Notes under the pieces: model-generated
What the model saw: the letters and a program-made list of their open reading frames with translations, nothing else
Database searches by the model: none
Told to the model about the DNA's origin: nothing
Source: a virus
IMG/VR virus record: IMGVR_UViG_3300032224_000746
Coordinates: 1-23,385 of that record
DNA: 23,385 bases
Direction: 5' to 3' (one strand)
Shown: positions 11,254 through 23,385 of the stretch, one piece after another
Numbering within the stretch: position 1 is the stretch's first letter
Layout of the letters: each line of letters begins with the position of its first letter
Made by a program: the position numbers and the translations under genes

Positions 11254-11254
11254 A

Positions 11255-11401: not shown

Positions 11402-11413
11402 TCTTGTGACTCC

Positions 11414-13671: not shown

Positions 13672-13703
13672 CTACGGGACGGGACGCGAAGCGTCCGCCG
13701 TAG
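13672..13703 (+). promoter_or_regulatory. Leader hairpin before the first rightward gene
   Basis: CTACGG and CCGTAG enclose an inner stem GGACGC-GAA-GCGTCC. It is followed by GGATACGGAAGGGG and the ATG, resembling the leader hairpin and AAGGGG site of several downstream genes, although element A itself is absent here. Confidence 0.6.
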
Positions 13704-13723
13704 GATACGGAAGGGGTACGGAT

Positions 13724-14512: not shown

Positions 14513-14763
14513 CCCTAGCGGGGAGGGGGACGCGCCCCCTCCCCTAGCGTAGCCGTGAAGCCCTTACCCGTAGCGGGTAGGGGCTTCATAGCGTCTAGGG
14601 GCTAGCGCGTAGCCGCCGCACGGATGGGCTAGCGTAGGGCTAGGAAGCCCGTAGGGACGCGATACGGGACGCGGCGCGGGATTGTAGCCCCTAGCCCTAG
14701 CGCGGGGCGTAGCGGGGCGCATACGCGGACGCGCCGCACGGCTTCGCATAATCCGCCGCATCC
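14513..14763 (+). terminator. Tandem strong hairpins and CTAG-rich noncoding stretch
   Basis: Right after the stop, GGGGAGGGGG-ACGCG-CCCCCTCCCC (14520-14544) forms a perfect 10-bp stem, flanked by CTAGCG on each side. A second stem at 14557-14587 pairs GAAGCCC...TACCCG with CGGGTA...GGGCTTC. No U-tract follows either. The remaining 175 bases hold no gene that I can support; they share the CTAG-rich, CAG/CTG-free composition of the preceding gene. Confidence 0.55.
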
Positions 14764-14851
14764 AAGTGTGTAATGATCGGGGATGGGTAGCAAGCCCGTA
14801 ATGATGTCGGTGGATAGTGGAGGGGCGGGATATACCCGCTCCCCGATAGTG
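14764..14851 (+). repeat. Cassette leader 1: elements B and A plus leader hairpin
   Basis: Element B (AAGTGTGTAATG) is at 14764-14775 and element A at 14792-14818 with central triplet ATG; their starts are 28 bases apart. A leader hairpin (GGGGCGGG with CCCGCTCCCC, 14822-14844) is bounded by TAGTG at 14815 and 14847. AAGGGG and the start codon follow. Confidence 0.85.
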
Positions 14852-14862
14852 TAAGGGGTGTA

Positions 14863-15051
14863 ATGATGAGCAAGGGTGATAAGGCGTTCGTGATCGCTAG
14901 CGTAGTGATCGGCGCAGCAGTAGGCACACACTTCGCGGATATTGTCGGCGGGATTGTCGGCGGATTCGCAGGGCTAGGCGCAGCGTGCGTAGCCTACGCA
15001 ATCGGGGATGAAGTCAATATGCGACTGGCGGAGCATTACCGCAAGGCGTAA
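14863..15051 (+). CDS. Small membrane-associated Gly-rich protein, unknown
   Basis: The product is 62 residues. Residues about 8-50 are hydrophobic and Gly/Ala-rich (FVIASVVIGAAVGTHFADIV, then GGIVGGFAGLGAACVAYAIG), enough for one or two short membrane helices with glycine-zipper spacing. The C-terminus is charged. Two adjacent ATGs (14863, 14866) follow AAGGGG; either may be used. It could be a small membrane-acting protein, for instance a superinfection-exclusion or holin-like peptide, but nothing specific supports that. Confidence 0.7.
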   Translation: MMSKGDKAFVIASVVIGAAVGTHFADIVGGIVGGFAGLGAACVAYAIGDEVNMRLAEHYRKA

Positions 15052-15059
15052 GGGTAGAC

Positions 15060-15093
15060 GGGACGGGTAGGGGTAGCATCCCCCTCCCGTCCC
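15060..15093 (+). terminator. GC-rich hairpin after gene
   Basis: GGGACGGG and GGGG pair with CCCC and CCCGTCCC around a six-base loop, a 12-bp stem with small bulges that starts 8 bases after the stop codon. No U-tract follows. Confidence 0.5.
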
Positions 15094-15105
15094 GCTACGC
15101 ATACC

Positions 15106-15159
15106 AAGTGTGTAATGGTCTAGGTTGGGGCTAAGCCCGTAATGATGTCGGTGGATAGT
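15106..15159 (+). repeat. Cassette leader 2: elements B and A with no gene following
   Basis: B is at 15106-15117 and A at 15133-15159 (triplet ATG), starts 27 bases apart. No ribosome-binding site and start codon follow; instead a strong hairpin comes 28 bases later and then the next leader. The stretch 15052-15363 between genes therefore contains two leaders and two hairpins but no supported gene. Confidence 0.82.
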
Positions 15160-15187
15160 GAGCCGCAATAAGAGCGGCGGGGCAAGG

Positions 15188-15216
15188 GTCTAGGGGGATA
15201 CGGATGCCCCCTAGAC
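15188..15216 (+). terminator. Perfect 10-bp hairpin in the gene-less cassette
   Basis: GTCTAGGGGG (15188-15197) pairs perfectly with CCCCCTAGAC (15207-15216) around a nine-base loop. It occupies the position of the hairpin that normally follows a gene, but here it directly follows element A. Confidence 0.5.
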
Positions 15217-15232
15217 GCACCCTATCCCGCAC

Positions 15233-15349
15233 CATTACGCACTTGCTTGCGATTCCGAACGCGCCTAAGTGTGTAATGATCGCGGATGGGGTGAAAGCCC
15301 GTAATGATGTCGGTGGATAGTGAGGGGTGGACGATCCATCCCCGTAGTG
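15233..15349 (+). repeat. Cassette leader 3: inverted arm, B, A and leader hairpin
   Basis: The inverted arm CATTACGCACTT (15233-15244) faces B (15267-15278) across 22 bases. A is at 15295-15321 (triplet ATG), 28 bases after B. The leader hairpin GGGGTGGA/TCCATCCCC (15324-15343, one bulged base) lies between TAGTG at 15318 and 15345. Confidence 0.85.
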
Positions 15350-15363
15350 CGAAGGGGTACGAT

Positions 15364-15705
15364 ATGGGACTACTCGCAACGATCCGCGCTAAGGGCGGCG
15401 CAACGCTAGACGCGGCGACGCTTACGGACGCGGGACTATCGGACGGGTACGCCGTAGGGATGGCGCAGGGAACCGCCCTGATGCTACCAGACGACGCGGA
15501 TGATACTACGCTAGGGCTAGCCCTTAGCCTGATCGCAGGGGCGTACGGATGCGCCTTCGTGGGGGCTTGGGTAGCGGATGACGGGGTACACCTAGACCCC
15601 GTAGCCGTAGTCCCTACCCTAGCGGACGCTATGGACGCGGGGCGACGCTACCAGCAGCGCGCCGTGTACGATATCGCAGGGGCGACGGAGCACGCCGTAG
15701 CCTAA
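15364..15705 (+). CDS. Hypothetical protein, unknown
   Basis: The product is 113 residues from the ATG at 15364, placed after GAAGGGGTACGAT, almost the same upstream sequence as the 13724 gene. It is Ala/Asp/Gly-rich, with LADAMDAGRRYQQRAVYDI near the C-terminus and two internal Ala/Leu-rich helices (LGLALSLIAGAYGCAFVGAW). I recognise no family. An upstream in-frame ATG inside element A would add 20 residues that translate the repeat and hairpin, so it is not preferred. Codon use is CTA- and ACG-rich as in the first rightward gene. Confidence 0.72.
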   Translation: MGLLATIRAKGGATLDAATLTDAGLSDGYAVGMAQGTALMLPDDADDTTLGLALSLIAGAYGCAFVGAWVADDGVHLDPVAVVPTLADAMDAGRRYQQRAVYDIAGATEHAVA

Positions 15706-15706
15706 G

Positions 15707-15737
15707 GGGGACGGGGGGCGGGCGCAAGCCCGTCCCC
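15707..15737 (+). terminator. GC-rich hairpin after gene
   Basis: GGGGACGGG (15707-15715) pairs perfectly with CCCGTCCCC (15729-15737), beginning right after the stop codon. There is no U-tract. Confidence 0.5.
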
Positions 15738-15747
15738 TATCCCGTAC

Positions 15748-15864
15748 CATTACACGCTTGTTTTGGTGTGCCTTGCGCGTGGAAGTGTGTAATGATTAGG
15801 GATGGGCAACAAGCCAGTAATGTTCTCGGTGGATAGTGAGGGGTGGGCTTCCATCCCCGTAGTG
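15748..15864 (+). repeat. Cassette leader 4: inverted arm, B, A and leader hairpin
   Basis: The inverted arm CATTACACGCTT is at 15748-15759, B at 15783-15794, and A at 15811-15837 (variant AAGCCAGTAATG, triplet TTC), B to A 28 bases. The hairpin GGGGTGG...CCATCCCC (15840-15858) lies between TAGTG copies at 15834 and 15860. Confidence 0.85.
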
Positions 15865-15876
15865 TAGGGGTGAAGT

Positions 15877-16020
15877 ATGTACGCAGAATCGGATAAGTTT
15901 ATTGCGGATTGTGAAGTGTGCGCGATTCTAGGCATCCGCTCCCTCGCGCGATTCTTGGGCGGCGGGCGTTGGCTATGCGATCCGTGCTCGGTGGACTTCA
16001 TCAAGGCGCGTAGGGGATAG
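15877..16020 (+). CDS. Small zinc-ribbon-like protein
   Basis: The product is 47 residues with two CxxC pairs: CEVC (residues 12-15) and CDPC (residues 34-37), 18 residues apart, a standard zinc-ribbon spacing. AGGGGTGAAGT precedes the ATG. The rest is short and basic at the C-terminus (FIKARRG). Probably a nucleic-acid or protein-binding knuckle; no specific family recognised. Confidence 0.72.
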   Translation: MYAESDKFIADCEVCAILGIRSLARFLGGGRWLCDPCSVDFIKARRG

Positions 16021-16027
16021 CCCTCAT

Positions 16028-16145
16028 CATTACACACTTCGGCGCGGTCGGCGCGCTTACCAAGTGTGTAATGGTGAAGGTTGGGCGACAAGCCCGTAAT
16101 GTTCTCGGTGGATAGTGGAGGAGCAGACAAACTGCTCCCGTAGTG
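16028..16145 (+). repeat. Cassette leader 5: perfect inverted B pair, A and leader hairpin
   Basis: CATTACACACTT (16028-16039) and AAGTGTGTAATG (16062-16073) are a perfect 12-bp inverted repeat with a 22-base loop that itself contains repeated GGCGCG. A is at 16090-16116 (triplet TTC), 28 bases after B. The hairpin GGAGCAG-ACAAA-CTGCTCC (16120-16138, including one A shared with the loop) lies between TAGTG at 16113 and 16141. Confidence 0.88.
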
Positions 16146-16158
16146 TAAGGGGTGCGAT

Positions 16159-16386
16159 ATGGTTAGGCTTATGATCCAAGTATTCGCGGAAACCACATAC
16201 GAGCGGGCGTTCTACGAGGTAGAGATTGCGGCGCGTACCGAGAAGGGCGTATTCCGCGAGGCGAAGAAACTCGCAACCGCCCTAGCCGCAACGCTGGAAG
16301 GGCGCACAATCGCAACCGAGGTGATGCTTACGGAAAACGCGCAACGCGCCGCGTATGGGACGGTCATCCGTAGCAACCACCGCTAG
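16159..16386 (+). CDS. Hypothetical protein, unknown
   Basis: The product is 75 residues. It starts with beta-type sequence (RLMIQVFAETTYERAFYEVEI), followed by a helix (VFREAKKLATALAATLEG) and a short C-terminal strand-like part. AAGGGGTGCGAT precedes the ATG. A small alpha/beta domain is likely. I recognise no family, and there is no cysteine, signal peptide or membrane segment. Confidence 0.72.
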   Translation: MVRLMIQVFAETTYERAFYEVEIAARTEKGVFREAKKLATALAATLEGRTIATEVMLTENAQRAAYGTVIRSNHR

Positions 16387-16392
16387 GACTTC

Positions 16393-16428
16393 GGTAGGGG
16401 GCGGGGTCGTATCCCTCCGTCCCCTACC
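16393..16428 (+). terminator. GC-rich hairpin after gene
   Basis: GGTAGGGG (16393-16400) pairs with CCCCTACC (16421-16428), with further inner CGG/CCG pairing. It begins 6 bases after the stop codon and directly abuts the following inverted B arm. Confidence 0.5.
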
Positions 16429-16545
16429 ATTACACGCTTCCGTGCGTTCCGATACGCGGGCAAGTGTGTAATGGTGAAGGATAGGGGTAAAGCCCGTAAT
16501 GTTCTCGGTGGATAGTGGAGGGACGGACAATCCGCCCCCCTAGTG
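16428..16545 (+). repeat. Cassette leader 6: inverted arm, B, A and leader hairpin
   Basis: The inverted arm CATTACACGCTT is at 16428-16439, B at 16462-16473 (22-base loop), and A at 16490-16516 (triplet TTC), 28 bases after B. The hairpin GGGACGGA...TCCGCCCC (16520-16538) lies between TAGTG at 16513 and 16541. Confidence 0.86.
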
Positions 16546-16557
16546 TGAGGTGTAGCA

Positions 16558-16884
16558 ATGGGAAGAGTAAGCAATAGAAACGCGGATGCGCATATCCGCA
16601 ACGCGATCCCGTTCGTAGGGTCTAACTTCTACGGGGTAGACGGATCGCATAGCCGATACGGATCGGCGCGATGGTATCTATCGGGCGCGGCGGAGGAGCG
16701 ATTCCATAAGGATCAGGCAGCGGGGAAGATTCATTACTCGGTCTGGTCTTATAGCACGCCTATCGCGTGGCTTGTGGAGGGCGAGGGCTGGGTTATCCCG
16801 CCCGTCAAGTACTCAATGAGCACGGGGCGACACCAGTCCTATGTGCGCCGCGCTACGGCGGGGCAAGCAATCGCAACGGCGTAG
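16558..16884 (+). CDS. Conserved phage protein with SYxTPIAW motif, unknown function
   Basis: The product is 108 residues. The segment VWSYSTPIAWLVEGEGWVIP followed by VKYSMSTGRHQSYVRRA matches a pattern I know from uncharacterised phage and plasmid proteins, in which a TPIAW strand, a W-x-P turn and S-x-T-x-RHQ are conserved; I recall these as DUF proteins without known activity. The N-terminal half is basic and includes FVGSNFYGVDG. GAGGTGTAGCA precedes the ATG. Possibly a small nucleic-acid-related domain, but the role is unknown. Confidence 0.8.
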   Translation: MGRVSNRNADAHIRNAIPFVGSNFYGVDGSHSRYGSARWYLSGAAEERFHKDQAAGKIHYSVWSYSTPIAWLVEGEGWVIPPVKYSMSTGRHQSYVRRATAGQAIATA

Positions 16885-16891
16885 GCGGTAC

Positions 16892-16919
16892 GGGGGGCGG
16901 GCGAGGTAGCCCGTCCCCC
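16892..16919 (+). terminator. GC-rich hairpin after gene with G-U wobble
   Basis: GGGGG-G-CGGGC pairs with GCCCG-T-CCCCC, an 11-bp stem containing one G-U pair that is stable only in the rightward transcript. It starts 7 bases after the stop. Confidence 0.5.
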
Positions 16920-16930
16920 TATACCCCTAC

Positions 16931-17100
16931 CATTACACACTTCCGAACTGCGCCGAACTACCCAAGTGTGTAATGATGCTGGATGTGCCTAAGTGTGTAA
17001 TGGTTGGGGATGACCCGCAAGCCCGTAATGTTCTCGGTGGATAGTGGAAGGACAAGCAACAATGCTAGACACCAAGCCCGTAATGGACTCGGTGGATAGT
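16931..17100 (+). repeat. Cassette leaders 7 and 8: B-B-A plus a second A in tandem
   Basis: The inverted arm CATTACACACTT (16931-16942) is followed by B at 16964-16975, a second B at 16991-17002, and A at 17019-17045 (triplet TTC). Starts are spaced 27 and 28 bases. A further A copy (triplet GAC) follows at 17074-17100. This is the densest element cluster in the window and begins a 679-base stretch (16885-17563) without a firmly supported gene. Confidence 0.85.
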
Positions 17101-17217
17101 GGAGGGGCAGACCGAATCCTAGGAATCGGTACGGACTTCCAATGGTGAGGCTCTTGGACGAGCGAGCAGTTATGCCGCAGCCATAAGTGCGGGTATAAGA
17201 GAAGCAAAGGGCGATGA
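17062..17217 (+). pseudogene. Possible small reading frame interrupted by TGA, ending in a Cys/His knuckle
   Basis: An ATG at 17062 preceded by GGAAGG opens 28 codons, which read through element A copy 8, then meets TGA at 17146-17148. The same frame continues for 22 codons (GSWTSEQLCRSHKCGYKRSKGR given in parts: GSWTSEQLC, RSHKCGYKRSKGR) to a TGA at 17215. The second part looks protein-like, with C-R-S-H-K-C, but has no start codon of its own. It may be a decayed small gene into which an element was copied. A chance frame is equally possible. Confidence 0.3.
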
Positions 17218-17297
17218 CCGCTAAACCAATGTATCGGAGGAGCGGTAGGGCGCGAGGAGGGCAACCCCGACGGGGGCAAACCCGAATCAACCCGAAT

Positions 17298-17333
17298 AAG
17301 AGGGGGGCTACCCGACGGGGTAGTCCTCCTCTT
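17298..17333 (+). terminator. Very long hairpin (16 bp) with two G-U pairs
   Basis: AAGAGGGGGGCTACCC (17298-17313) pairs with GGGTAGTCCTCCTCTT (17318-17333), including two G-U wobbles that favour the rightward RNA. It is the hairpin closing the cluster before the next leader. Confidence 0.55.
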
Positions 17334-17349
17334 GCTATCCCCGTCCTAC

Positions 17350-17439
17350 CATTACGGGCTTGTTTTTTATCCGATCAAGTGTGTAATGATGAGGGTTGCG
17401 CCGAAATAACCCAAGCCAGTAATGATCTCGGTGGATAGC
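17350..17439 (+). repeat. Cassette leader 9: inverted arm matching A, then B and A
   Basis: Here the left arm is CATTACGGGCTT (17350-17361), the exact complement of the A start AAGCCCGTAATG rather than of B. B is at 17377-17388 and A at 17413-17439 (variant AAGCCAGTAATG, triplet ATC, ends GGATAGC). Only a doubtful 20-codon frame follows. Confidence 0.82.
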
Positions 17440-17469
17440 AGAGGGGCGACTCCAATAAGGAGCAGAGAG

Positions 17470-17532
17470 ATGGGGGCTATACGCCCTCCCGCCGCAGGGG
17501 GTAAAACTGCCGTCCCTCTACTAAGCCAGTAA
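17470..17532 (+). CDS. Doubtful 20-residue reading frame
   Basis: AGGAG lies seven bases before an ATG that opens 20 codons (MGAIRPPAAGGKTAVPLLSQ) and stops with the TAA inside the next element A. The frame also contains a GGGGGC/GCCC hairpin. Position after a leader and stop inside the next one fit the local cassette pattern, but the length allows no firm call. Confidence 0.25.
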   Translation: MGAIRPPAAGGKTAVPLLSQ

Positions 17533-17549
17533 TGGTATCGGTGGATAGT
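17523..17549 (+). repeat. Element A copy 10 (compact leader)
   Basis: Variant AAGCCAGTAATG, triplet GTA, then TCGGTGGATAGT. AGGAGG follows directly, without a leader hairpin, and the ATG is at 17564. Confidence 0.85.
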
Positions 17550-17563
17550 GAGGAGGTGTACCA

Positions 17564-17752
17564 ATGGCAGTAGGCGTGAACTTGACTGACCTGATTCGCT
17601 ATGAGCAGGGCGAGATGACCGAGGAGGAGGTCGTGAACTTCTTCCAAGACCTCTACGACTCTGGGGTATGGCATCAACTACAAGGGCATTACCAGCGCAC
17701 GATGAACGATCTCGTTCAGGCGGGACTGGTATCGGTGTTCGGGAGCAACTAA
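17564..17752 (+). CDS. Conserved small phage protein (DUF7417-like), unknown function
   Basis: The product is 62 residues. DLIRYEQGEMTEEEVVNFFQ, then LYDSGVWHQLQGHYQR and a hydrophobic end (LVQAGLVSVFG) match a small family common in phages of Actinobacteria, recognised by YExGExxEEExxxxFQxLxDxGxxWQLQGxYxR. I associate it with DUF7417 from memory. It is helical, acidic and probably cytosolic. GAGGAGGTG precedes the ATG. Biochemical role unknown. Confidence 0.85.
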   Translation: MAVGVNLTDLIRYEQGEMTEEEVVNFFQDLYDSGVWHQLQGHYQRTMNDLVQAGLVSVFGSN

Positions 17753-17783
17753 CTACACGGGGGACGCACTACCCCCGACTTCT

Positions 17784-17815
17784 GGGACGGCAGGGACGCA
17801 CCCCCCTGTCGTCCC
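17784..17815 (+). terminator. 12-bp hairpin after gene
   Basis: GGGACGGCAGGG (17784-17795) pairs with CCCTGTCGTCCC (17804-17815), one G-U wobble, in the rightward transcript. No U-tract. Confidence 0.5.
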
Positions 17816-17828
17816 TACTACCATAGGC

Positions 17829-17990
17829 AAGTGTGTAATGGTTGGGGATGGGTGGCAAGTGTGTAATGTTGTGGGTTGGGTTGGCAGAACTGGGCAGGAT
17901 TGGGGGCGGATGGTAAAGAAAACCTAACCTAACCATAATCATTACACACATAATCGCACGGAGCGCGTTGGTAGGATGTAGCGTGTAATG
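17829..17990 (+). repeat. Two B elements and a long G-U-rich inverted repeat in a gene-free stretch
   Basis: B copies at 17829-17840 and 17857-17868 are 28 bases apart. The sequence from 17857 (GTGTGTAATG...GGTTGGGTTGG) is inverted at about 17922-17949 (CCTAACCTAACC...CATTACACAC), pairing with two G-U wobbles. A further GCGTGTAATG is at 17981-17990. A degenerate A start (AAGCCTGTAATG) is at 18013. The interval 17753-18238 holds these repeats and leaders 11 and 12, and no gene that I can support. Confidence 0.7.
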
Positions 17991-18065
17991 GTAGAGGTGT
18001 ATAGATAGGAGCAAGCCTGTAATGATCTGGGCTAATCCGTGCGTAGAACACCTGTTCTAGCCGTC

Positions 18066-18092
18066 AAGCCCGTAATGATATCGGTGGATAGT
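18066..18092 (+). repeat. Element A copy 11, no gene following
   Basis: The triplet is ATA. The downstream 83 bases contain AGGAG but no usable start codon before the next element at 18176. Confidence 0.85.
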
Positions 18093-18175
18093 AGGAGATA
18101 GCGACATAGAGGAAGCGGGTATAGACCCCCCTATATATCGCCATATTTCTGCGGTATTTCGGCGCGATTATTGGG

Positions 18176-18229
18176 AAGCCCGTAATGGTGTCGGTGGATA
18201 GTGAGGGGATCGGTGTGATCCCCATAGTG
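18176..18229 (+). repeat. Element A copy 12 with perfect leader hairpin
   Basis: A is at 18176-18202 (triplet GTG). GGGGATC (18205-18211) pairs perfectly with GATCCCC (18217-18223) between TAGTG copies at 18199 and 18225. GAGGTG and the ATG follow. Confidence 0.88.
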
Positions 18230-18238
18230 GAGGTGGGT

Positions 18239-18475
18239 ATGGCTGAGCAGGAGTTTATCAACATTACGCCTAGCAGCGACGGCTACGCAATGATGGCGGC
18301 GGTGTTCGCTGAGGATATTCTCGGCAACATCCGCAAGAGTGATCGCGAGCGTATGACCTCGCTCTTGGGATCGGTTATCAACATTTCGGCGCACTTGGGC
18401 AACGCAGCAGCGCAGGACGACGCGGACGCGATCAAAGCGTACGAGTGGCTTGTGGAGCGGTTCCCCGCAAAGTAA
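18239..18475 (+). CDS. Hypothetical protein, unknown
   Basis: The product is 78 residues from the ATG at 18239, after GGAGGTGGGT. The protein is largely helical (GYAMMAAVFAEDILGNIRKS, then LLGSVINISAHLGNAAAQDD) and ends AYEWLVERFPAK. No family recognised. The stop codon TAA overlaps the first two bases of the next element A. An in-frame ATG within element A would add 18 residues read through the hairpin and is not preferred. Confidence 0.75.
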   Translation: MAEQEFINITPSSDGYAMMAAVFAEDILGNIRKSDRERMTSLLGSVINISAHLGNAAAQDDADAIKAYEWLVERFPAK

Positions 18476-18526
18476 GCCCGTAATGGTGTCGGTGGATAGT
18501 AGGAAGCCCCCGTTGGGGGAGTAGTG
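18474..18526 (+). repeat. Element A copy 13 with leader hairpin; overlaps preceding stop codon
   Basis: A is at 18474-18500 (triplet GTG); its first two bases complete the TAA of the gene before it. CCCCC-GTT-GGGGG (18507-18519) forms the leader hairpin, followed by TAGTG and GAGGTG. Confidence 0.86.
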
Positions 18527-18535
18527 GAGGTGTGT

Positions 18536-18907
18536 ATGGCGTACTACAAGGGGAATACATCATTACCAGAGCATTGGGGAACGATTGAGCACACGGATCA
18601 CGCAGGGGTAGTTCGGCGCACTAGGCGGTGGATGGCGTACGAGGGTGCGGATACCCTTGATGACTTCCGTCAAGCGTGGAAGCGCACCCGTGTCTGGAAG
18701 TGCGGGATCGCTCATCACGATGCGTATCGGATTGAGCCTACGCCGTGCGCGGTGTGCGGCGTAATGATTACTGAGGAAGTCGGGCAAGACAACCGACCCT
18801 TCGTTGAGTGGCGACGCGGGTGGGCAGACTTGCGGGTCAAACATTACAAGTGCGCGTGGGGTCAGACTCTCAACGCGGTGGTGAACCTAAGCAGGGAACT
18901 AGCCTAA
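18536..18907 (+). CDS. Hypothetical protein with CxxC motif, unknown
   Basis: The product is 123 residues from the ATG at 18536, after GGAGGTGTGT. It contains CAVC (around residues 79-82) and a later HYKCAWG, which may form a metal site with the HH pair earlier (IAHHDAYRI). The N-terminal half is aromatic and charged (RRTRRWMAYEGADTLDDF, QAWKRTRVWKC). I recognise no family. Its stop TAA overlaps the next element A. Confidence 0.74.
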   Translation: MAYYKGNTSLPEHWGTIEHTDHAGVVRRTRRWMAYEGADTLDDFRQAWKRTRVWKCGIAHHDAYRIEPTPCAVCGVMITEEVGQDNRPFVEWRRGWADLRVKHYKCAWGQTLNAVVNLSRELA

Positions 18908-18932
18908 GCCCGTAATGGTGTCGGTGGATAGT
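18906..18932 (+). repeat. Element A copy 14 (compact)
   Basis: The triplet is GTG. The element starts inside the stop codon of the previous gene; AGGAGGTG and the ATG at 18945 follow without a hairpin. Confidence 0.88.
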
Positions 18933-18944
18933 AGGAGGTGGAGT

Positions 18945-19166
18945 ATGAAGATCGGTAGCGCAGAGCGATATGGTGAGCACTATCAAGTGGTTCGGATGTT
19001 CTTTGAGGATCGTCCGCGCGAGGTGGTCGCGAAGTATATGACCCTTGCGGAAGCGCAGGAGTGGTGTCGCGATCCCGAAACTAGCAGCAGCACGGCGACG
19101 AGCGCGGAAGCGGTCGCCCGTACGGAGAAGTTGGGCGCGTGGTTTGACGGCTACGAGGAAGTCTAA
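18945..19166 (+). CDS. Conserved phage protein (EAQxWCxDPETSS type), unknown function
   Basis: The product is 73 residues. The pattern YMTLAEAQEWCRDPETSSST followed by TSAEAVARTEKLGAWFDGYEE matches a small family I know from many actinobacteriophages and other phages, with invariant EAQ, C-x-DPETSS and G-x-WFDGYE. No function is known to me. AGGAGGTGGAGT precedes the ATG. It likely forms a compact alpha/beta domain in the cytosol. Confidence 0.85.
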   Translation: MKIGSAERYGEHYQVVRMFFEDRPREVVAKYMTLAEAQEWCRDPETSSSTATSAEAVARTEKLGAWFDGYEEV

Positions 19167-19173
19167 CCGCAAT

Positions 19174-19258
19174 CATTACGCGCTTCGGCGCGTGTGGAAG
19201 TGTGTAATGGTAAAGGATGGGCAGGAAAAACAAGCCCGTAATGATGTCGGTGGATAGT
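19174..19258 (+). repeat. Cassette leader 15: inverted arm, B and A
   Basis: The inverted arm CATTACGCGCTT is at 19174-19185, B at 19198-19209 (12-base loop), and A at 19232-19258 (triplet ATG), 34 bases after B. The stop-proximal sequence TAACCGCAATCATTAC recurs at 20883. Confidence 0.85.
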
Positions 19259-19271
19259 GAGGAGGTGGAGT

Positions 19272-19364
19272 ATGAAGGTTCGGTGCGATGAGTGTGGTCG
19301 GGTCTTTGACCTGAGCAACAATGAGCAAGCGCAGGAGTGGGCATACGGACACGATTGCGAGTAA
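19272..19364 (+). CDS. Tiny C2HC zinc-finger-like protein
   Basis: The product is 30 residues: CDEC (residues 5-8) and a C-terminal H-x-C (GHDCE) form a plausible CCHC-type zinc knuckle. GAGGAGGTGGAGT precedes the ATG. The TAA stop overlaps the next element A, so this gene is a complete minimal cassette from one element to the next. Confidence 0.75.
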   Translation: MKVRCDECGRVFDLSNNEQAQEWAYGHDCE

Positions 19365-19389
19365 GCCCGTAATGATATCGGTGGATAGT
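19363..19389 (+). repeat. Element A copy 16 (compact)
   Basis: The triplet is ATA. The element overlaps the previous stop codon by two bases, and AGGAGGTGGCT leads straight into the ATG at 19401. Confidence 0.88.
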
Positions 19390-19400
19390 AGGAGGTGGCT

Positions 19401-19817
19401 ATGAAGATCACAAGCGTGGTACTGGAAGCAAGCGACGCGGTGAATATCGTAGTGGGCGCGATTGAGGGCGGCACGGGGTATTGGGCTGAGTGTACCGACT
19501 ACAAGTGGAAGCGTTGGTATGTGAATCCCGATGCTAAGTTTGACGACCCCGACCACGACAAACTACGGGATATCCCGCGCGACGAGGTGCTCGTCCGTAT
19601 CAAGGAAGACGAGGACAACGGCGAGCCGACGCGCGAGGTGAACGACTGGTTTGAGATCACGACGGAGAACTTGGAGCGAGCGGTGTGCGCCGTGCTCAAT
19701 AGCGAGTACGCCCATACCATCTCGTTTGACGCATACGGCGGAGAGATAGATGTGGACGCGACGGGCGCGGATATCATCTTTCAGTACGCAATGTTCGGGG
19801 AACTGGTCTTCGCATAA
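19401..19817 (+). CDS. Acidic hypothetical protein, unknown
   Basis: The product is 138 residues from the ATG at 19401; a GTG two codons earlier lies within the ribosome-binding site and is rejected. The N-terminus (MKITSVVLEASDAVNIVVGA) looks like a beta-strand pair, and YWAECTDYKWKRWYVNPDAK is aromatic. The second half is strongly acidic (RIKEDEDNGEPTREVNDWFE; ISFDAYGGEIDVDATGADII). No recognised family. Strong acidity may indicate a DNA-mimic or inhibitor-type protein, which is speculation. Confidence 0.75.
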   Translation: MKITSVVLEASDAVNIVVGAIEGGTGYWAECTDYKWKRWYVNPDAKFDDPDHDKLRDIPRDEVLVRIKEDEDNGEPTREVNDWFEITTENLERAVCAVLNSEYAHTISFDAYGGEIDVDATGADIIFQYAMFGELVFA

Positions 19818-19818
19818 C

Positions 19819-19845
19819 AAGCCCGTAATGGTGTCGGTGGATAGC
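19819..19845 (+). repeat. Element A copy 17 (compact)
   Basis: The triplet is GTG and the element ends GGATAGC. It follows the previous TAA after one base. AGAGGAGGTGGAGT leads to the ATG at 19860. Confidence 0.86.
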
Positions 19846-19859
19846 AGAGGAGGTGGAGT

Positions 19860-20138
19860 ATGTACGAGATGATGACTTGCTCTGAGTGTGGGGAGATGGC
19901 GTACTACCCCGACGAGGTTGCTGTTGGGTTCTGGGTTCACGACGGCGGTCTTGCGGTCAAGGACAATATCTTCGCGACGCTGAGCGTAGCGGATATTACT
20001 GACGCAACTGGGACGAGCGTGCCAGAGGGCGCGAAGGTCTATTGCTTGGAGTGTACGCCGTGCGAGTGCGGCGATCACCAGAAGTTTGCGCCGCACACGG
20101 CAGAGAATATCGTGGCATACGAAGGAGGCTCAAAGTGA
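19860..20138 (+). CDS. Zinc-ribbon-like hypothetical protein
   Basis: The product is 92 residues. CSEC (residues 7-10) and a C-terminal cluster CLECTPCEC provide at least four ligands for zinc. Between them is a beta-rich acidic stretch (VGFWVHDGGLAVKDNIFATL). GAGGTGGAGT precedes the ATG. It is the first gene of a five-gene run with overlapping or near-touching genes and no element A between them, so these are probably co-transcribed. Confidence 0.75.
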   Translation: MYEMMTCSECGEMAYYPDEVAVGFWVHDGGLAVKDNIFATLSVADITDATGTSVPEGAKVYCLECTPCECGDHQKFAPHTAENIVAYEGGSK

Positions 20139-20269
20139 GCACGAAGGTATGGTGCGACGACTGCGAGCGCACGGAGATTGTCTGCGAGTGCGTAGACAAT
20201 AAAGATCGGGATAATGCTTGCTACGAGTTAGAGCAAGCAGAGAACTGCGAACATAGTCAGGAGGGGTAG
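20135..20269 (+). CDS. Small Cys-rich protein, unknown
   Basis: The product is 44 residues from a GTG that overlaps the preceding TGA (GTGA). AAGGAGG lies seven bases upstream, which supports the GTG. Cysteines occur as CDDC and CEC plus two more, and the sequence is otherwise acidic. It probably binds a metal. The four-base overlap with the previous gene implies translational coupling. Confidence 0.65.
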   Translation: MSTKVWCDDCERTEIVCECVDNKDRDNACYELEQAENCEHSQEG

Positions 20270-20270
20270 G

Positions 20271-20561
20271 ATGAGTCATATCAAGGAAACAAAGCGGTTC
20301 CTCGCTGAGGTGGACTTCCGCGCGATCAAGCGCGTAGTCATCTTCGCGGAGGATGAGGGCGACGCTATGGGTCGGCTAATGACGACCGATGTGGAACTCT
20401 TTATGAGCGACTCTGGTCGGCGCGATCTTTATGTCGGCTATGGCATTGAGGTCTTGGGTGATGAACCTGCGGGACACGGGTCTGGCAGCGTCTATGTGGT
20501 CGGCGAGGTGGACGAGCGCGAGAGCGCGCGCACCAACACGATTGTGGTGGGCAATGATTAG
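20271..20561 (+). CDS. Hypothetical protein, unknown
   Basis: The product is 96 residues. It begins MSHIKETKRFLAEVDFRAIK, then VVIFAEDEGDAMGRLM, a beta-alpha pattern, and ends with Gly/Ser and Val-rich strands (GSGSVYVVGEVDERESARTN). AGGAGGGGTAGG precedes the ATG. No recognised family, no membrane segment. It overlaps the next gene by 8 bases. Confidence 0.72.
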   Translation: MSHIKETKRFLAEVDFRAIKRVVIFAEDEGDAMGRLMTTDVELFMSDSGRRDLYVGYGIEVLGDEPAGHGSGSVYVVGEVDERESARTNTIVVGND

Positions 20562-20739
20562 GCGCGACGAGCCGAACGGGGAGTTTCTAGTTTGCGACTG
20601 CGGCAACGATGTGATGAGCGACGGGTTTGACCCCGTTGATCCGCACACGGGCAAGGTAGTTGAGCCGACCCCGTTGGAGTGGGACGGAGTATCGTGGCAA
20701 TGCCACAAGTGTAAGGTGATTGAGCCAGTAGCATTATGA
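20554..20739 (+). CDS. Small zinc-ribbon-like protein
   Basis: The product is 61 residues with CDC near the start (FLVCDCGNDV) and CHKC near the end (WQCHKCKVI), a plausible zinc ribbon. The ribosome-binding site is weak (GTGGTGG), but the ATG overlaps the previous stop region, so translation is probably coupled. Function unknown. Confidence 0.68.
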   Translation: MIRRDEPNGEFLVCDCGNDVMSDGFDPVDPHTGKVVEPTPLEWDGVSWQCHKCKVIEPVAL

Positions 20740-20753
20740 AAGAGGAGGACAAA

Positions 20754-20885
20754 GTGGTTATCAAGGGCGAGAACCGACACCGCAAGGTGGAGAAGCGCAA
20801 GCGCGCAATGCTGATGAGCGGCAAGGGTACGCTTCGGCAGCAGAACGAACTTGCTGCGAAAGAGCGGCAGAAGCGTCAGGGCTAA
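20754..20885 (+). CDS. Small very basic helical protein
   Basis: The product is 43 residues from a GTG with GAGGAGG five bases upstream. An in-frame ATG at 20736 (ATGA overlap with the previous stop) would add six residues including the ribosome-binding site itself, and is second choice. It is rich in Lys, Arg and Gln (RHRKVEKRKRAMLMSGKG; LAAKERQKRQG) and likely one or two helices. RNA or DNA binding is plausible from charge only. Confidence 0.62.
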   Translation: MVIKGENRHRKVEKRKRAMLMSGKGTLRQQNELAAKERQKRQG

Positions 20886-20892
20886 CCGCAAT

Positions 20893-21003
20893 CATTACTC
20901 ACTTGTCCAACGCAAGTAGAAGTGTGTAATGTTCTAGGTTGCCTATAAGAAAATCAAGCCCGTAATGTTGTCGGTGGATAGTGGGAGAACAATCTCCCTA
21001 GTA
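20893..21003 (+). repeat. Cassette leader 18: inverted arm, B, A and leader hairpin
   Basis: The inverted arm CATTACTCACTT is at 20893-20904, B at 20920-20931, and A at 20956-20982 (triplet TTG). The leader hairpin GGGAGA-ACAA-TCTCCC (20983-20998) lies between TAGTG (20979) and TAGTA (20999). Confidence 0.85.
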
Positions 21004-21014
21004 TGGAGGTGGGT

Positions 21015-21317
21015 ATGTCTATGGCGAAACATTGGAACAAGGTGGAGGCGTGGCTCCACGACGCTAAGGGTATCGCGTTTGACGATTGCCACAAGATTTA
21101 TGTCTTGATGGACGAAGAGCAGATGGCTTTGATGAAGGAGTACGGGTATGACCCGCTGATTTCTTCCGACACAATGACTATTGACGAGATGCTCAGCACG
21201 CTGAAACTTTGGTACAAGAAGTCGTGTATGTTGCGATTTATCAACGCGGTGAGCACGAATCACGAAGACCCGAACTTGGGCTTTGTTGATCTGATCCCGC
21301 AAGGTGCTGACGAGTAA
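21015..21317 (+). CDS. Conserved phage protein (EYGYDPLI type), unknown function
   Basis: The product is 100 residues from the ATG at 21015 after GGAGGTGGGT; a second ATG two codons later is also possible. Recognisable conserved segments are LMDEEQMALMKEYGYDPLI, LSTLKLWYKKSCMLRFINAV and LGFVDLIPQG, a pattern I have seen in uncharacterised proteins of actinobacteriophages. It is acidic, helical and cytosolic. The stop TAA overlaps the next element A. Confidence 0.8.
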   Translation: MSMAKHWNKVEAWLHDAKGIAFDDCHKIYVLMDEEQMALMKEYGYDPLISSDTMTIDEMLSTLKLWYKKSCMLRFINAVSTNHEDPNLGFVDLIPQGADE

Positions 21318-21342
21318 GCCCGTAATGATGTCGGTGGATAGT
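21316..21342 (+). repeat. Element A copy 19 (compact)
   Basis: The triplet is ATG. It starts within the preceding TAA and is followed by GAGGAGGTGGTT and the ATG at 21355. Confidence 0.88.
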
Positions 21343-21354
21343 GAGGAGGTGGTT

Positions 21355-21621
21355 ATGAGTAAGGCTGATGGGTTTGGTATCCGTCATCGCGATTGTGGTG
21401 GTCGGCTGATGTCGCAAGAGGCGACTATTGTCTACCACTCAATAGAGGCAGACGGCAAGGGTAGTTGGAAGTATGACGGGTGGGAAGTTGGTCGTGATGA
21501 ATCAACTGACCAGATCGGCTTCTCCTGTGATCTATGCGACGAAACAATCCCGTGGTCTGGATTTGAGATGATTCAGACTGACGAAGATTGGTGGGGGTTT
21601 TATGGTGGCAAGAGTGTCTGA
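21355..21621 (+). CDS. Hypothetical protein with Cys pair, unknown
   Basis: The product is 88 residues. RDCGGRL near the N-terminus and CDLCDE near residues 59-62 could form a zinc ribbon; between them is EATIVYHSIEADGKGSWKYD. The C-terminus is Trp-rich (WSGFEM...DEDWWGFYGG). GAGGAGGTGGTT precedes the ATG. The 3' end overlaps the next gene by 20 bases. Confidence 0.75.
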   Translation: MSKADGFGIRHRDCGGRLMSQEATIVYHSIEADGKGSWKYDGWEVGRDESTDQIGFSCDLCDETIPWSGFEMIQTDEDWWGFYGGKSV

Positions 21622-21829
21622 CGAGGTTGGCGTAGAGGTAATGGGATTCACGGCTACGGATGTCCTAGCGGTAATCCGCGAAGACGAGGACTTTATGTCG
21701 GAGGCTGAGGCTGAGAAGTTTCTGCGCGTAATGGGCAGAAAGTTTCAGGATCGCCTAACTGAGGAGGGCTTTGATATCCTCAGAACATTTGTAGAGATGT
21801 ACCGCAAGGAGGTGGCTGATAATGGCTGA
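21602..21829 (+). CDS. Hypothetical helical protein, unknown
   Basis: The product is 75 residues from the ATG at 21602 (GGTGGGGG upstream). An internal ATG at 21641 (MGFTATDVLAVI) also has GAGG nearby and may be the real start. The core is helical and acidic (IREDEDFMSEAEAEKFLRVM; LTEEGFDILRTFVEMYRKEV). No family recognised. It overlaps both neighbours, pointing to one transcript. Confidence 0.68.
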   Translation: MVARVSDEVGVEVMGFTATDVLAVIREDEDFMSEAEAEKFLRVMGRKFQDRLTEEGFDILRTFVEMYRKEVADNG

Positions 21830-22088
21830 GGTAGTAAGTGGTCGCAACTTGACGACCATTGTGCTCAACGAAACGGAGGTTCGGTATCTGCGGGATGTGC
21901 TCTCCGATGTGGAGATTCGGTCGCGGCAAGAAGATTCGTTTGCGGCTACGCAGATTGCCGTGCTCTACGAACTATGGACGGCTGTGTCTGACGCAGAGCA
22001 GTTTGAGCCAGAGGAAGACCTTCTGACTGCGGCTGGTGAGGCGTATCACTTCCGCGAGCCAGACTTGGCTGAGCCAGACGGCAAGTAA
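21822..22088 (+). CDS. Hypothetical acidic protein, unknown
   Basis: The product is 88 residues. TIVLNETEVRYLRDVLSDVE is a helix-type segment also seen in other small phage proteins, and the C-terminus is acidic and unstructured-looking (REPDLAEPDGK). AAGGAGG lies nine bases before the ATG. It overlaps the previous gene by 8 bases, and its TAA stop overlaps the next element A. Confidence 0.74.
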   Translation: MAEVVSGRNLTTIVLNETEVRYLRDVLSDVEIRSRQEDSFAATQIAVLYELWTAVSDAEQFEPEEDLLTAAGEAYHFREPDLAEPDGK

Positions 22089-22113
22089 GCCCGTAATGGT
22101 GTCGGTGGATAGT
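22087..22113 (+). repeat. Element A copy 20 (compact)
   Basis: The triplet is GTG. It overlaps the previous stop by two bases; AGAGGAGGTAGT leads into the ATG at 22126. Confidence 0.88.
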
Positions 22114-22125
22114 AGAGGAGGTAGT

Positions 22126-22356
22126 ATGAACGACGGGTACATTAGGGTTCGGATCAACGATGTTCGTTGGGCAGCATTGTGCTACGACAACGACACGCAC
22201 GCTTGGGGCGGGACAATCTGGGAGAAGTCGGCTGATGGCAACGACTACGCTCTTGGTGCTACCGCAGGGTTCCCTGTTGAGGGCAAGCATAATATCCACA
22301 ATGTCGCGGCACTTGTGGAGAATATCGTGGAAGGAGAGAACGGCTATGGCAAGTAA
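22126..22356 (+). CDS. Hypothetical protein, unknown
   Basis: The product is 76 residues. It begins MNDGYIRVRINDVRWAALCY, followed by WGGTIWEKSADGNDYALG, a beta-rich pattern, and ends with a helix (NIHNVAALVENIVEGENGYGK). The ribosome-binding site is GAGGAGG. No recognised family. It overlaps the next gene by 11 bases. Confidence 0.72.
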   Translation: MNDGYIRVRINDVRWAALCYDNDTHAWGGTIWEKSADGNDYALGATAGFPVEGKHNIHNVAALVENIVEGENGYGK

Positions 22357-22522
22357 TAAACTTCGGATGGCTAAGAAGGTAAGGTCGCTCCGCCCGTACT
22401 CCGTGATCCTCGCTGAGGCACGAGAGCGCGAGCGAAAGACGACCCTGTTGATCGCCTATATGAGCCTTGCTCTGGCGATGTTTGGAATCTACCTTGCGGG
22501 GATCGCAATCGGTAGCAACTAG
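22346..22522 (+). CDS. Small single-pass membrane protein
   Basis: The product is 58 residues. A basic N-terminal half (MASNKLRMAKKVRSLRPYSV) is followed by EARERERKT and one clear membrane helix at about residues 34-56 (LLIAYMSLALAMFGIYLAGI). Positive charge before the helix suggests the N-terminus stays in the cytosol. GAAGGAG is upstream of the ATG. A role in lysis or exclusion is possible but not indicated by sequence. Confidence 0.72.
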   Translation: MASNKLRMAKKVRSLRPYSVILAEARERERKTTLLIAYMSLALAMFGIYLAGIAIGSN

Positions 22523-22523
22523 C

Positions 22524-22550
22524 AAGCCCGTAATGGGTTCGGTGGATAGT
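22524..22550 (+). repeat. Element A copy 21 (compact)
   Basis: The triplet is GGT, the most divergent in the set. It begins one base after the preceding TAG, and AGGAGGTGGAGTT leads to the ATG at 22564. Confidence 0.86.
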
Positions 22551-22563
22551 AGGAGGTGGAGTT

Positions 22564-23286
22564 ATGCCTAACTGGTGTAAGAATCGGGTACTAGTAATCG
22601 GGGACGAAACGCAACGAGCAGAGGTATCGGCGTTCGTGTACGGCAGCGACGAGCAGAAGTTTGACTTCTCAAAGATCGTCCCGCCGCCAAACACGGCAGC
22701 CTACTCTGCTACGGCAAGCAGCACGGATTATGCTTGCGGCTGTAAGTCTGAGTATGTGGGCGAATCGCCTGACGGGTCGTGGCAGATCAACGGCAAGGAA
22801 GTCGTTGGCGGTCGCTGCCCAGAGCACGATAAGATTTGTATGATGGACTCGCCAGACAACTGGTACAACTGGAATGTTGAGCATTGGGGTACTAAGTGGA
22901 ACGCTGGCGACGAGTATGTTTCTGACGACAATGGTGTCTGGGGATTTGATACGGCGTGGTCGCCAGCCGAGCCTGTGATTCGGGCGTTGGCTGAGCGGTT
23001 CCCCGATATCACTTTCATCCACGATTATGTGGAGCAGGGCATCGCGTTCGTTGGTCGCAAGGTTTACAACGCGCCAGAATCAGACGAGGCTCGCGATAGG
23101 TTTGCGACGATTGTCTGCGGTGGAGACTCTCACTCAGACGAGTGGTATGGCTTCTCGTATGACGAGGAAGTCATCCCTCCTCAGATGCTCCTAACGGAGT
23201 GTGAGATTGACGCTGAGCAGCACGGCACGCTTGTCTGGTGGGCTACGGCTAAGGCTCTATTCCCTGAGGGTGGGTGGGGCGGCTGA
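22564..23286 (+). CDS. Api92/DUF1281-like ferredoxin-fold protein
   Basis: The product is 240 residues. The start MPNWCKNRVLVIGDE matches the hallmark MPNWCxNxLxIxG opening of the Api92/YubB-like (DUF1281) family of phage and plasmid proteins, and VWGFDTAWSPAEPVIRALAE followed by RFPDITFIHDYVEQGIAFVG matches its C-terminal ferredoxin-like part. A Cys-rich insertion lies between (YACGCKSEY ... GGRCPEHDKIC). The family's biochemical role is not established. AGGAGGTGGAGTT precedes the ATG. The gene ends TGATG, overlapping the next start. Confidence 0.85.
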   Translation: MPNWCKNRVLVIGDETQRAEVSAFVYGSDEQKFDFSKIVPPPNTAAYSATASSTDYACGCKSEYVGESPDGSWQINGKEVVGGRCPEHDKICMMDSPDNWYNWNVEHWGTKWNAGDEYVSDDNGVWGFDTAWSPAEPVIRALAERFPDITFIHDYVEQGIAFVGRKVYNAPESDEARDRFATIVCGGDSHSDEWYGFSYDEEVIPPQMLLTECEIDAEQHGTLVWWATAKALFPEGGWGG

Positions 23287-23385
23287 TGCAGACCTTTCTT
23301 CCGTACAATGATTTCGTCAAGTCGGCGCAAGTCCTTGACCGCCAGAGGCTTGGGAAGCAGAGAGTAGAAACACTCCAACTTCTCA
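23286..23385 (+). CDS. MSMEG_6728-like protein, pyrimidine-dimer glycosylase-type (partial, N-terminus)
   Basis: Thirty-three codons are visible before the window ends. MQTFLPYNDFVKSAQVLDRQ followed by RLGKQRVETLQLL matches the conserved start of the MSMEG_6728 family, which is related to the T4 endonuclease V/pyrimidine-dimer DNA glycosylase group; the LDxxRLGKQRVE motif is its most recognisable part. In that group the enzyme excises UV photoproducts. Activity here is inferred only, as most of the protein is outside the window. The ATG overlaps the preceding TGA, so the two genes are coupled. Confidence 0.85.
   Translation, partial: MQTFLPYNDFVKSAQVLDRQRLGKQRVETLQLL

Follow-up and report, generated by a model that had tools for sequence, protein, structure and literature searches.

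A 27-bp element repeated along the rightward arm of a phage as a candidate promoter for a phage-encoded specificity factor

We analyzed a 23,385-nt stretch of DNA from an uncultured phage (IMG/VR record IMGVR_UViG_3300032224_000746; hereafter the window), in which a 27-bp sequence, AAGCCCGTAATGNNNTCGGTGGATAGT (element A), is present in 21 copies, all on the + strand, between 14792 and 22550. Most likely, the repeats serve as promoters private to this phage and are recognized by a specificity protein that it encodes. We consider it reasonably probable that host polymerase is redirected to element A by such a protein, for which gene 1, at the start of the arm, is the likeliest source. Close relatives of this phage carry the same layout with other element sequences, and the candidate factor diverges along with them.

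Element A and the upstream element B

The original prediction of a 27-base element in 21 copies was borne out, with all copies on the + strand and a chance expectation of 0.00 (100 dinucleotide shuffles). At a threshold of up to three mismatches to AAGCCCGTAATGNNNTCGGTGGATAGT, 17 of the 21 copies were exact, three had one mismatch and one had two, and the whole-record search that had been proposed returned no additional copies outside the array (23.4-kb record). The array had been placed at 14764-22550; the end is correct, whereas 14764 is the start of the first element B, described below, and the first A begins at 14792. Nor is the triplet that had been called variable free to vary, as its middle base is T in 19/21 copies, and the NT that follows GTAATG is common to the A triplet and element B. 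A ribosome-binding site and ATG had been expected right after most copies. We found a Shine-Dalgarno sequence (SD) and ATG directly 3' of A in eight copies (ATG at +12 to +15 from the A end), but a 5' hairpin stands between A and the SD/ATG in another eight (ATG at ~+33 to +45), and five (at 15133, 17019, 17074, 17413, and 18066) lack an ORF, so that a gene starts at fixed geometry 3' of A in 16/21 copies. The genes and hairpins flanking the copies are unrelated to each other in sequence. The copies are as follows:

14792-14818, + strand: A copy 1; 5' hairpin, then gene 14863-15051
15133-15159, + strand: A copy 2; no ORF downstream
15295-15321, + strand: A copy 3; hairpin, then gene 15364-15705
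15811-15837, + strand: A copy 4; hairpin, then gene 15877-16020
16090-16116, + strand: A copy 5; hairpin, then gene 16159-16386
16490-16516, + strand: A copy 6; hairpin, then gene 16558-16884
17019-17045, + strand: A copy 7; no ORF; A copy 8 follows 55 bp later
17074-17100, + strand: A copy 8; precedes a conserved structured non-coding RNA
17413-17439, + strand: A copy 9; precedes a ~80-nt hairpin-closed RNA without ORF
17523-17549, + strand: A copy 10; SD and ATG immediately 3', gene 17564-17752
18066-18092, + strand: A copy 11; no ORF
18176-18202, + strand: A copy 12; hairpin, then gene 18239-18475
18474-18500, + strand: A copy 13; overlaps the upstream gene's stop codon; hairpin, then gene 18536-18907
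18906-18932, + strand: A copy 14; SD/ATG immediately 3'
19232-19258, + strand: A copy 15; SD/ATG immediately 3', gene 19272-19364
19363-19389, + strand: A copy 16; SD/ATG immediately 3', gene 19401-19817
19819-19845, + strand: A copy 17; SD/ATG immediately 3', gene 19860-20138
20956-20982, + strand: A copy 18; hairpin, then gene
21316-21342, + strand: A copy 19; SD/ATG immediately 3'
22087-22113, + strand: A copy 20; SD/ATG immediately 3'
22524-22550, + strand: A copy 21; SD/ATG immediately 3', gene 22564-23286

Upstream of A we found no conserved -35 and no other promoter-like conserved sequence before the A-led units. The AT-rich part of A touches the probable transcript start, a geometry nearer to that of single-subunit polymerase promoters. 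A leader peptide beginning at the ATG inside A was considered and rejected, since this ATG is in frame with the gene in some copies only and synonymous variation is slight.

A second element, B (AAGTGTGTAATGNTNNNGGWTGGG; 13 copies on the + strand), usually lies 27-28 bp upstream of A (GTAATG to GTAATG). The two are forms of one wider motif, sharing the left part, while the ATAGT end and the gene start are absent from B. A further nine copies of B are inverted and lie at the 3' ends of genes; these inverted copies are found mainly in the lineage of the window.

14764-14787, + strand: element B, 28 bp 5' to A copy 1 (measured from GTAATG to GTAATG)
15106-15129, + strand: element B, 27 bp 5' to A copy 2
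15267-15290, + strand: element B, 28 bp 5' to A copy 3
15783-15806, + strand: element B, 28 bp 5' to A copy 4
16062-16085, + strand: element B, 28 bp 5' to A copy 5
16462-16485, + strand: element B, 28 bp 5' to A copy 6
16964-17014, + strand: element B, tandem pair with a spacing of 27 bp; A copy 7 follows at 28 bp
17377-17400, + strand: element B, 36 bp 5' to A copy 9
17829-17880, + strand: element B, tandem pair 28 bp apart, without A
19198-19221, + strand: element B, 34 bp 5' to A copy 15
20920-20943, + strand: element B, 36 bp 5' to A copy 18
15221-15244, - strand: inverted B-like element where a unit ends (3' side)
GTAATG at 15753, 16033, 16433, 16936, 17355 (A-like left part), 17945, 19179, and 20898, - strand: other inverted elements

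In six arrays we averaged folding energy over 28-nt windows around A, a measure that was informative where averaged base-pair probability was not. Windows within A folded weakly, whereas the strongest or nearly the strongest folding came from windows whose first base lay at the 3' edge of A or shortly before it, so that in all six arrays the hairpins begin at this edge; as RNA, element A is itself unstructured (z 0.22). Directly 3' of copy 8 lies the following feature:

17101-17345, + strand: structured non-coding RNA

This RNA shows covariation and no conserved ORF, and it is preceded by A in six phages that represent four element types. An Rfam search of the array returned only chance-like miRNA matches on inverted repeats. 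These observations bear on whether A could act in the leader RNA, as a translation-initiation or RNA-processing signal read by a phage RNA-binding protein. Such a role would suit the eight copies that adjoin the SD and the eight that precede a hairpin and SD, and the start-associated sequence (SAS) of cluster K has been proposed to act in translation (PMC3203893); however, a pure translation signal would not explain A before a non-coding RNA and other ORF-less stretches, A has no structure of its own, and B occurs upstream without an SD and also in inverted copies. We therefore regard an RNA-level signal as distinctly improbable.

Concerted change of the elements between relatives

Two relatives, L010 and L011, have large terminase subunits (TerL) 98% identical to that of the window and carry an array before orthologous genes. 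Nevertheless, in both of them every intact A copy is changed to another sequence, and B is changed too: counted in the window, L010, and L011, the window type of element occurs 21/0/0 times, the L010 type 0/25/0, and the L011 type 0/0/16. More distant relatives have further versions (GTTAGGNTYYAGGGTATAT in G006/L014, L019, and L020; GAAATGNTNTCGGCTAGAG in L018 and L017; CGTAACGNNNNNCACTAAACCGT in L022) and keep the layout, with A adjoining the hairpin or SD and, in several, B ~26-29 bp upstream. In phages with different element types, the copies stand at equal positions relative to orthologous genes. The search of related phages that had been suggested thus has a divided outcome, in that the exact A sequence is absent from the relatives while the system is present with other sequences; the exact pattern had no match in IMG/VR, and megablast of window positions 10000-23385 against cultured phages returned none. 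One site appears to have been left behind:

18013-18039, + strand: probable relic element, GTAATGATCTGGGCTAAT, without its own gene

At this site L011 retains an L010-type sequence, GTAATGGTCTGGGTTGAT, and the version in the window is decayed; judged from these sequences, it is probably a site that escaped the concerted change.

Because all copies change in concert between close relatives, their sequences imply a phage-encoded factor that recognizes them specifically. The copies could alternatively be alike through gene conversion or duplication of a mobile cassette, with no shared functional signal, as the array-like organization and near identity of the copies might suggest; but the flanking genes and hairpins are unrelated in sequence, orthologous genes have their elements at equal positions despite different element types, and the ORF-less copy at 18013-18039 appears to have escaped the change, which leaves this explanation exceedingly improbable. 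Among the shared signals that had been listed for A, a phage-specific promoter gains support from the concerted change, the hairpins at the edge of A, and the position of A before a non-coding RNA. A recombination site or integron-like cassette is disfavored, since by inference there is neither an integrase nor a shared core, and the positions are tied to gene starts.

The repeat-like arrays of some distant relatives are tRNA genes. The contig ends of G006 overlap by 127 bp, which makes it circular at ~57 kb. A search of genome contigs with a TerL alignment gave one remote match, from which no host was inferred.

Gene 1 as the candidate specificity factor

The most likely candidate for the specificity factor is the following gene:

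13724-14512, + strand: gene 1 (262 aa), the candidate specificity factor; opens the rightward arm ahead of the array and lacks an A element

Gene 1 is 70% identical to its counterpart in L010 and 52% in L011, against 98% for TerL and 76-100% for most array genes. Between GTTAGG-type and GAAATG-type phages its identity is 39-42% (74-98% for most genes), and between two GTTAGG-type phages with the same element it is 78%. Putative promoter and candidate factor diverge together between relatives, as a correlation only. For the HTH_3 regulator (78 vs. 77%) and AAA (94 vs. 95%), identity is unlinked to element type, and the HTH_3 regulator of G006 was rejected as the factor for this reason. Other genes also diverge fast, namely g2 (62 aa, membrane-like) and two more, with a dependence on the element that does not appear in all comparisons. 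Gene 1 is present only in loci with arrays or with too little upstream DNA to tell, and it was not detected in the tRNA-array relatives.

The gene 1 family has a predicted C-terminal helix-turn-helix and a possible sigma region 2, to which the modeled protein of a relative bears a weak resemblance. In a six-frame Sigma70_r2 search, the gene 1 of one relative was the only viral match (E 0.014). When the model of the G006 gene 1 (pLDDT 59.6, low confidence) was compared again with structures drawn from Foldseek candidates, the top three matches were sigma-28 (Z 6.3, 60 residues, 2.5 A) and sigma factors made up most of the 50 matches listed; Foldseek itself gave no match for this model at E <= 0.001. 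For the protein encoded by gene 1 in the window itself, modeling gave a poor structure that contributes little. Sequence searches with gene 1 found no match in Pfam or among PDB sequences, only unrelated weak matches and no sigma in NCBIfam and PHROGs, and no similarity among INPHARED phages; hhalign against sigma alignments gave 2-3.5% probability over 14 residues (column shuffles <=0.5%).

Two other proteins could in principle read the elements. A might be the promoter of a single-subunit, T7/T3-like RNA polymerase supplied by the phage or a helper, with ~20-bp recognition, an AT-rich melting stretch (ATA, TATAT, TAAA), and a G at +1. The compact, very highly conserved A, which abuts the hairpin or SD and has no -35, would fit, as would ATA followed by GTGGAGG and the presence in L022 of CACTAAAC, which we take to resemble a T3 promoter. 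Yet no PF00940 match was found in 17 records, a search in which control genomes were silent too, and in the circular G006 the long ORFs not opposite real genes encode only tail, MuF, VWA, and similar proteins. We consider such a polymerase unlikely. A and B might instead be operators of a phage repressor or activator, in the manner of stoperators, where one protein reads 20-40 asymmetric sites along transcription and diverges with them. In how many sites there are, in their shared orientation, and in their divergence alongside one protein, A and B agree with what has been published for stoperators (PMC6550527), the tandem spacing of 27-28 bp suits cooperative binding, and a helix-turn-helix is predicted in gene 1. 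However, A is not scattered but holds a fixed place relative to the hairpin or SD at gene starts, its right part ends where transcript structure begins, the A-led units have no other promoter-like sequence in front of them, and the HTH_3 regulator of G006 does not track the element type; operators thus appear rather improbable.

A proposed mechanism and its relation to known systems

We propose that A is a promoter, repeated in front of almost all genes and RNAs in the rightward arm, to which host RNA polymerase would be redirected by the gene 1 product, a candidate divergent sigma-type factor. Because gene 1 heads the arm and has no A, its expression would come first, presumably driven by a host-type promoter, and its product would then activate all A sites. 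Transcripts may start within the right half of A or at its 3' edge; the RNA would then begin with a stabilizing hairpin and ribosome-binding site, or directly with the latter. B would be a putative second binding site 26-28 bp upstream, mostly where an intergenic gap precedes the unit, and when the specificity of the factor changes, all A and B sites would change along.

Retargeting a global transcription factor is expected to be nearly impossible, since every one of its sites would have to be altered along with it. Yet a number of closely related phages differ here at each of ~16-25 sites, and both a candidate protein and a site that was probably left behind can be named. They offer a natural series for the evolution of promoter specificity and possibly a set of phage promoters that are orthogonal to each other, and they may serve as a model for the start-associated repeats of actinobacteriophages, which have long lacked an explanation. 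In annotated phages, the gene 1 family has no sequence-detectable relative. Only tentatively do we suggest that it is a new family of phage transcription-initiation factors acting on a 27-bp, start-adjacent promoter without a -35, which with 20-40 sites would form an orthogonal gene-by-gene system, switching specificity as a unit between phages with 85-98% identical core genes and insulating co-infecting relatives.

Several known systems share parts of this design. Like the T7/T3-type promoters, A is compact, highly conserved, and directly upstream of a 5' hairpin or leader, and its specificity varies between relatives, but no corresponding polymerase gene was found in the 17 records searched, where the controls were silent too. 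The stoperators of cluster A mycobacteriophages are likewise 20-30 asymmetric sites along transcription that diverge together with their protein; they lie mostly off promoters and gene starts, whereas A lies at gene starts (16/21) in fixed relation to the hairpin or SD (PMC6550527). Halovirus HF2 also has repeated intergenic sequences, which reporter assays identified as promoters, but these are archaeal TATA-box promoters that are conserved between relatives and show no concerted switching (PMC8707807).

The SAS/ESAS system of cluster K mycobacteriophages, which the original prediction had named as the closest precedent, is a fair analogy in layout: short asymmetric repeats of a single orientation adjoin start codons, and roughly half of them have a further repeat upstream (PMC3203893, PMC11373665). 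The ESAS consensus varies between subclusters, and ESAS may hold promoters (PMC3203893, PMC11373665); similar repeats occur in Microbacterium cluster EF (PMC7302621). SAS, however, is a 13-bp sequence (GGGATAGGAGCCC) within the ribosome-binding site, whereas A has 27 bp, another sequence, and a place before the SD (PMC3203893), and SAS is constant across cluster K, unlike A. ESAS is an upstream pair of 17-bp imperfect inverted repeats; B is a direct repeat of the left part of A, 27-28 bp upstream, with inverted copies only at the 3' ends of some units.

By analogy, a phage-encoded sigma factor with its own promoters would be a closer mechanistic precedent than SAS/ESAS. Such factors are gp36 of phiEco32 and gp47 of Salmonella phage 7-11, and the gp36 promoter is a single element, tAATGTAtA, without a -35 and with a start 6-8 bp downstream (PMC8948821). 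The 7-11 consensus, GTAAtg-(16)-aCTA, was not found as such; A contains GTAATGNT, comparable to the gp36 element. As in phiEco32 and 7-11, one phage protein is proposed to redirect the host polymerase to repeated phage-specific promoters, and both factor and promoter sequence differ between related phages; unlike in those phages, which have 6-8 promoters for middle and late genes, there are at least 21 here, before almost each small gene.

Repeated elements in the rightward arm

The single virus record of 23,385 bases carries leftward genes up to ~13.2 kb (terminase, portal, major head protein, connector, glycosyltransferase and tail proteins), followed by a rightward arm of small genes that starts at 13.7 kb. 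The original prediction of a repeated 27-base element (A) in this arm was confirmed, as A occurs 21 times, on the + strand only, where chance would give none; 24 of its 27 positions are fixed, with few deviations, while the triplet first described as variable has T as its middle base in 19 of the 21 copies. A second element (B) has the left part of A (AAG...GTAATGNT...GG) and lacks its ATAGT end. We counted 13 B copies on the + strand, single or in tandem, with B mostly 27-28 bp and sometimes 34 or 36 bp upstream of A (GTAATG core to core), and several units have a B-like copy in reverse orientation at their 3′ end. A search for conserved sequence upstream of the A copies without B found none.

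Downstream, a Shine-Dalgarno sequence (SD) and ATG follow A directly in 8 copies, a hairpin lies between in 8, and 5 have no ORF. Folding energies were compared in six arrays (the window, its relatives L010, L011 and G006, and two in the related contig G010). Averaged over 28-nt segments, the energy was weak within A and reached its strongest value, or nearly so, in segments starting at the 3′ edge of A or slightly upstream (in the window's array, -2.4 kcal/mol at 15 nt upstream of the edge vs. -6.5 at the edge; -1.0 vs. -6.9 kcal/mol in G006), and the hairpin sequences vary from phage to phage. Most simply, transcription would start within the right half of A or at its edge; a start past the end of A would not fit, since the RNA has to contain the complete hairpin as well as the SD. 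One A copy precedes a larger structure:

17101-17345, + strand: structured RNA of ~240 nt, directly 3′ of the A copy at 17074

This RNA is common to six phages with four element types (the window and counterparts in L010, L011, L030, L029 and L026), among which we found no conserved reading frame; in all six it directly follows an A element, and it has no Rfam match. Eighteen base pairs are changed on both sides, and the share of paired cells is 95%, compared with 86.5% for shuffles and 40-51% for slid controls. Separately, an ~80-nt stretch without an ORF (17440-17521) lies between two A elements, with a closing stem that begins at the end of A; L010 has a short perfect hairpin there instead.

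Concerted change of the element among relatives

Among terminase relatives taken from IMG/VR, L010 and L011 share 98% of the terminase (TerL) with the window. L010 has the element AAGCCCGTAATGNTNNGGGTTGATAGT in 25 copies and L011 has NAGYCCGTAATGNTTGGTGTATAKAGT in 16; each of the three types is confined to its own genome, with zero copies in the other two, and the differing elements are carried by the same genes. At 18013-18039, where the window reads GTAATGATCTGGGCTAAT, L011 has GTAATGGTCTGGGTTGATTCG, the L010 type, and this site, which has no ORF, appears to be left over from an ancestor with L010-like elements. The A/B layout is also kept in G006/L014, L019 and L020 with GTTAGGNTYYAGGGTATAT, in L018 and L017 with GAAATGNTNTCGGCTAGAG, and in L022 (64% GC) with CGTAACGNNNNNCACTAAACCGT. 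Replacement of all copies would be expected if one phage-encoded protein read them all.

Other features of these relatives were recorded. Seven (L021, L022, L023, L057, L069, L070 and L078) carry 25-46 tRNA genes beside the terminase gene, and the terminase frame at L011:7351-8769 has one internal stop codon. On the 83-kb contig G010 (L026-L029), the small-gene arm and gene 1 each occur in two versions, which are separated by roughly the length of one genome, differ in element type and have flanks ~80-85% identical; either two strains were assembled together or two genomes lie in tandem. In the window, a frame running off the contig end (23287-23385) resembles a pyrimidine dimer glycosylase gene at the same place in G006.

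Gene 1 as candidate specificity factor

Gene 1 (13724-14512) is the first gene of the arm, stands before the first B/A pair without an A of its own, and has relatives at the same position in array-bearing phages, the L022 counterpart being assigned by position and resemblance of sequence ends only, as the profile did not detect that ORF. It was undetected in relatives with tRNA arrays and without an element array. Its identity is 70% to L010 and 52% to L011, vs. 98% for TerL and 76-100% for most array genes. With G006 (GTTAGG-type) as reference, gene 1 is 78% identical to a same-element phage and 39-42% to GAAATG-type phages, which have 93-95% identity in TerL and 74-98% in most genes; in this comparison the identity of the HTH_3 regulator, SSB-like and AAA proteins shows no dependence on element type. 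Low values in this comparison are also found for two small genes (49% and 58%) and g2 (43%), so that gene 1 is the strongest candidate factor but has competitors. Upstream, ATGTATTTCCTC lies at 13547-13570 and also before the gene 1-like ORF of the distant L022, and is possibly part of the promoter making gene 1; several short CCAGTTTA/CTGCCAGT-like repeats, possible regulator sites, lie at 13280-13530, in the intergenic region from which the terminase genes and gene 1 diverge.

Searches of Pfam, PDB sequences and cultured phages gave no match to the gene 1 family. Searching in six frames with Sigma70_r2 turned up a single viral hit, a weak one to the G010 phage's gene 1 (E 0.014), and with hhalign against a sigma alignment the only similarity was a 14-residue stretch around EDxxQEA, with a probability of 2-3.5% (column shuffles ≤0.5%), far from proof. 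Foldseek gave no significant match for the AlphaFold model of the G006 protein (pLDDT 59.6). In a second look at structures, sigma factors made up most of 50 rows for this model, some matching region 4 at residues 148-206, and the top row was sigma-28 region 2 (Z 6.3, 2.5 A, residues 1-60), though Z below 8 in a helical protein may reflect common arrangement only; the window's own model was poorer, with one sigma-type row. We lean slightly toward a sigma-like protein, as a lead.

Proposed mechanism and known systems

In phiEco32, gp36 uses a single element (tAATGTAtA) that lacks a -35 and places the start 6-8 bp downstream; the 7-11 gp47 promoter is GTAAtg-(16)-aCTA (PMC8948821). Were GTAATGNT in A a -10-type element, transcription would be expected to begin near A positions 20-23; the hairpin and SD would then be part of the RNA, and no -35 would be required. 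Alternatively, the start could lie immediately 3′ of ATA, as with promoters of the T7 type, but no T7-type polymerase was found with the PF00940 profile in 17 records (control genomes were silent too) or among the long ORFs of the circular G006. Of the functions originally proposed for A (promoter, translation or RNA-processing element, recombination site), a phage-specific promoter is best supported.

In the literature searched, we found no earlier description of elements switching together or of a link between such switching and gene 1, and both are apparently new. The SAS/ESAS system, the precedent first suggested, offers a reasonable parallel in layout, but its sequence, position and repeat type do not match (PMC3203893, PMC7302621, PMC11373665). 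Co-divergence is common to A and the cluster A stoperators (PMC6550527), which do not share its gene-start geometry; for the repeats of halovirus HF2 (PMC8707807) promoter function is proven, but their sequence, unlike that of A, is kept between relatives. A direct precedent for the proposed mechanism is provided by the phage sigma factors of phiEco32 and 7-11 (PMC8948821).
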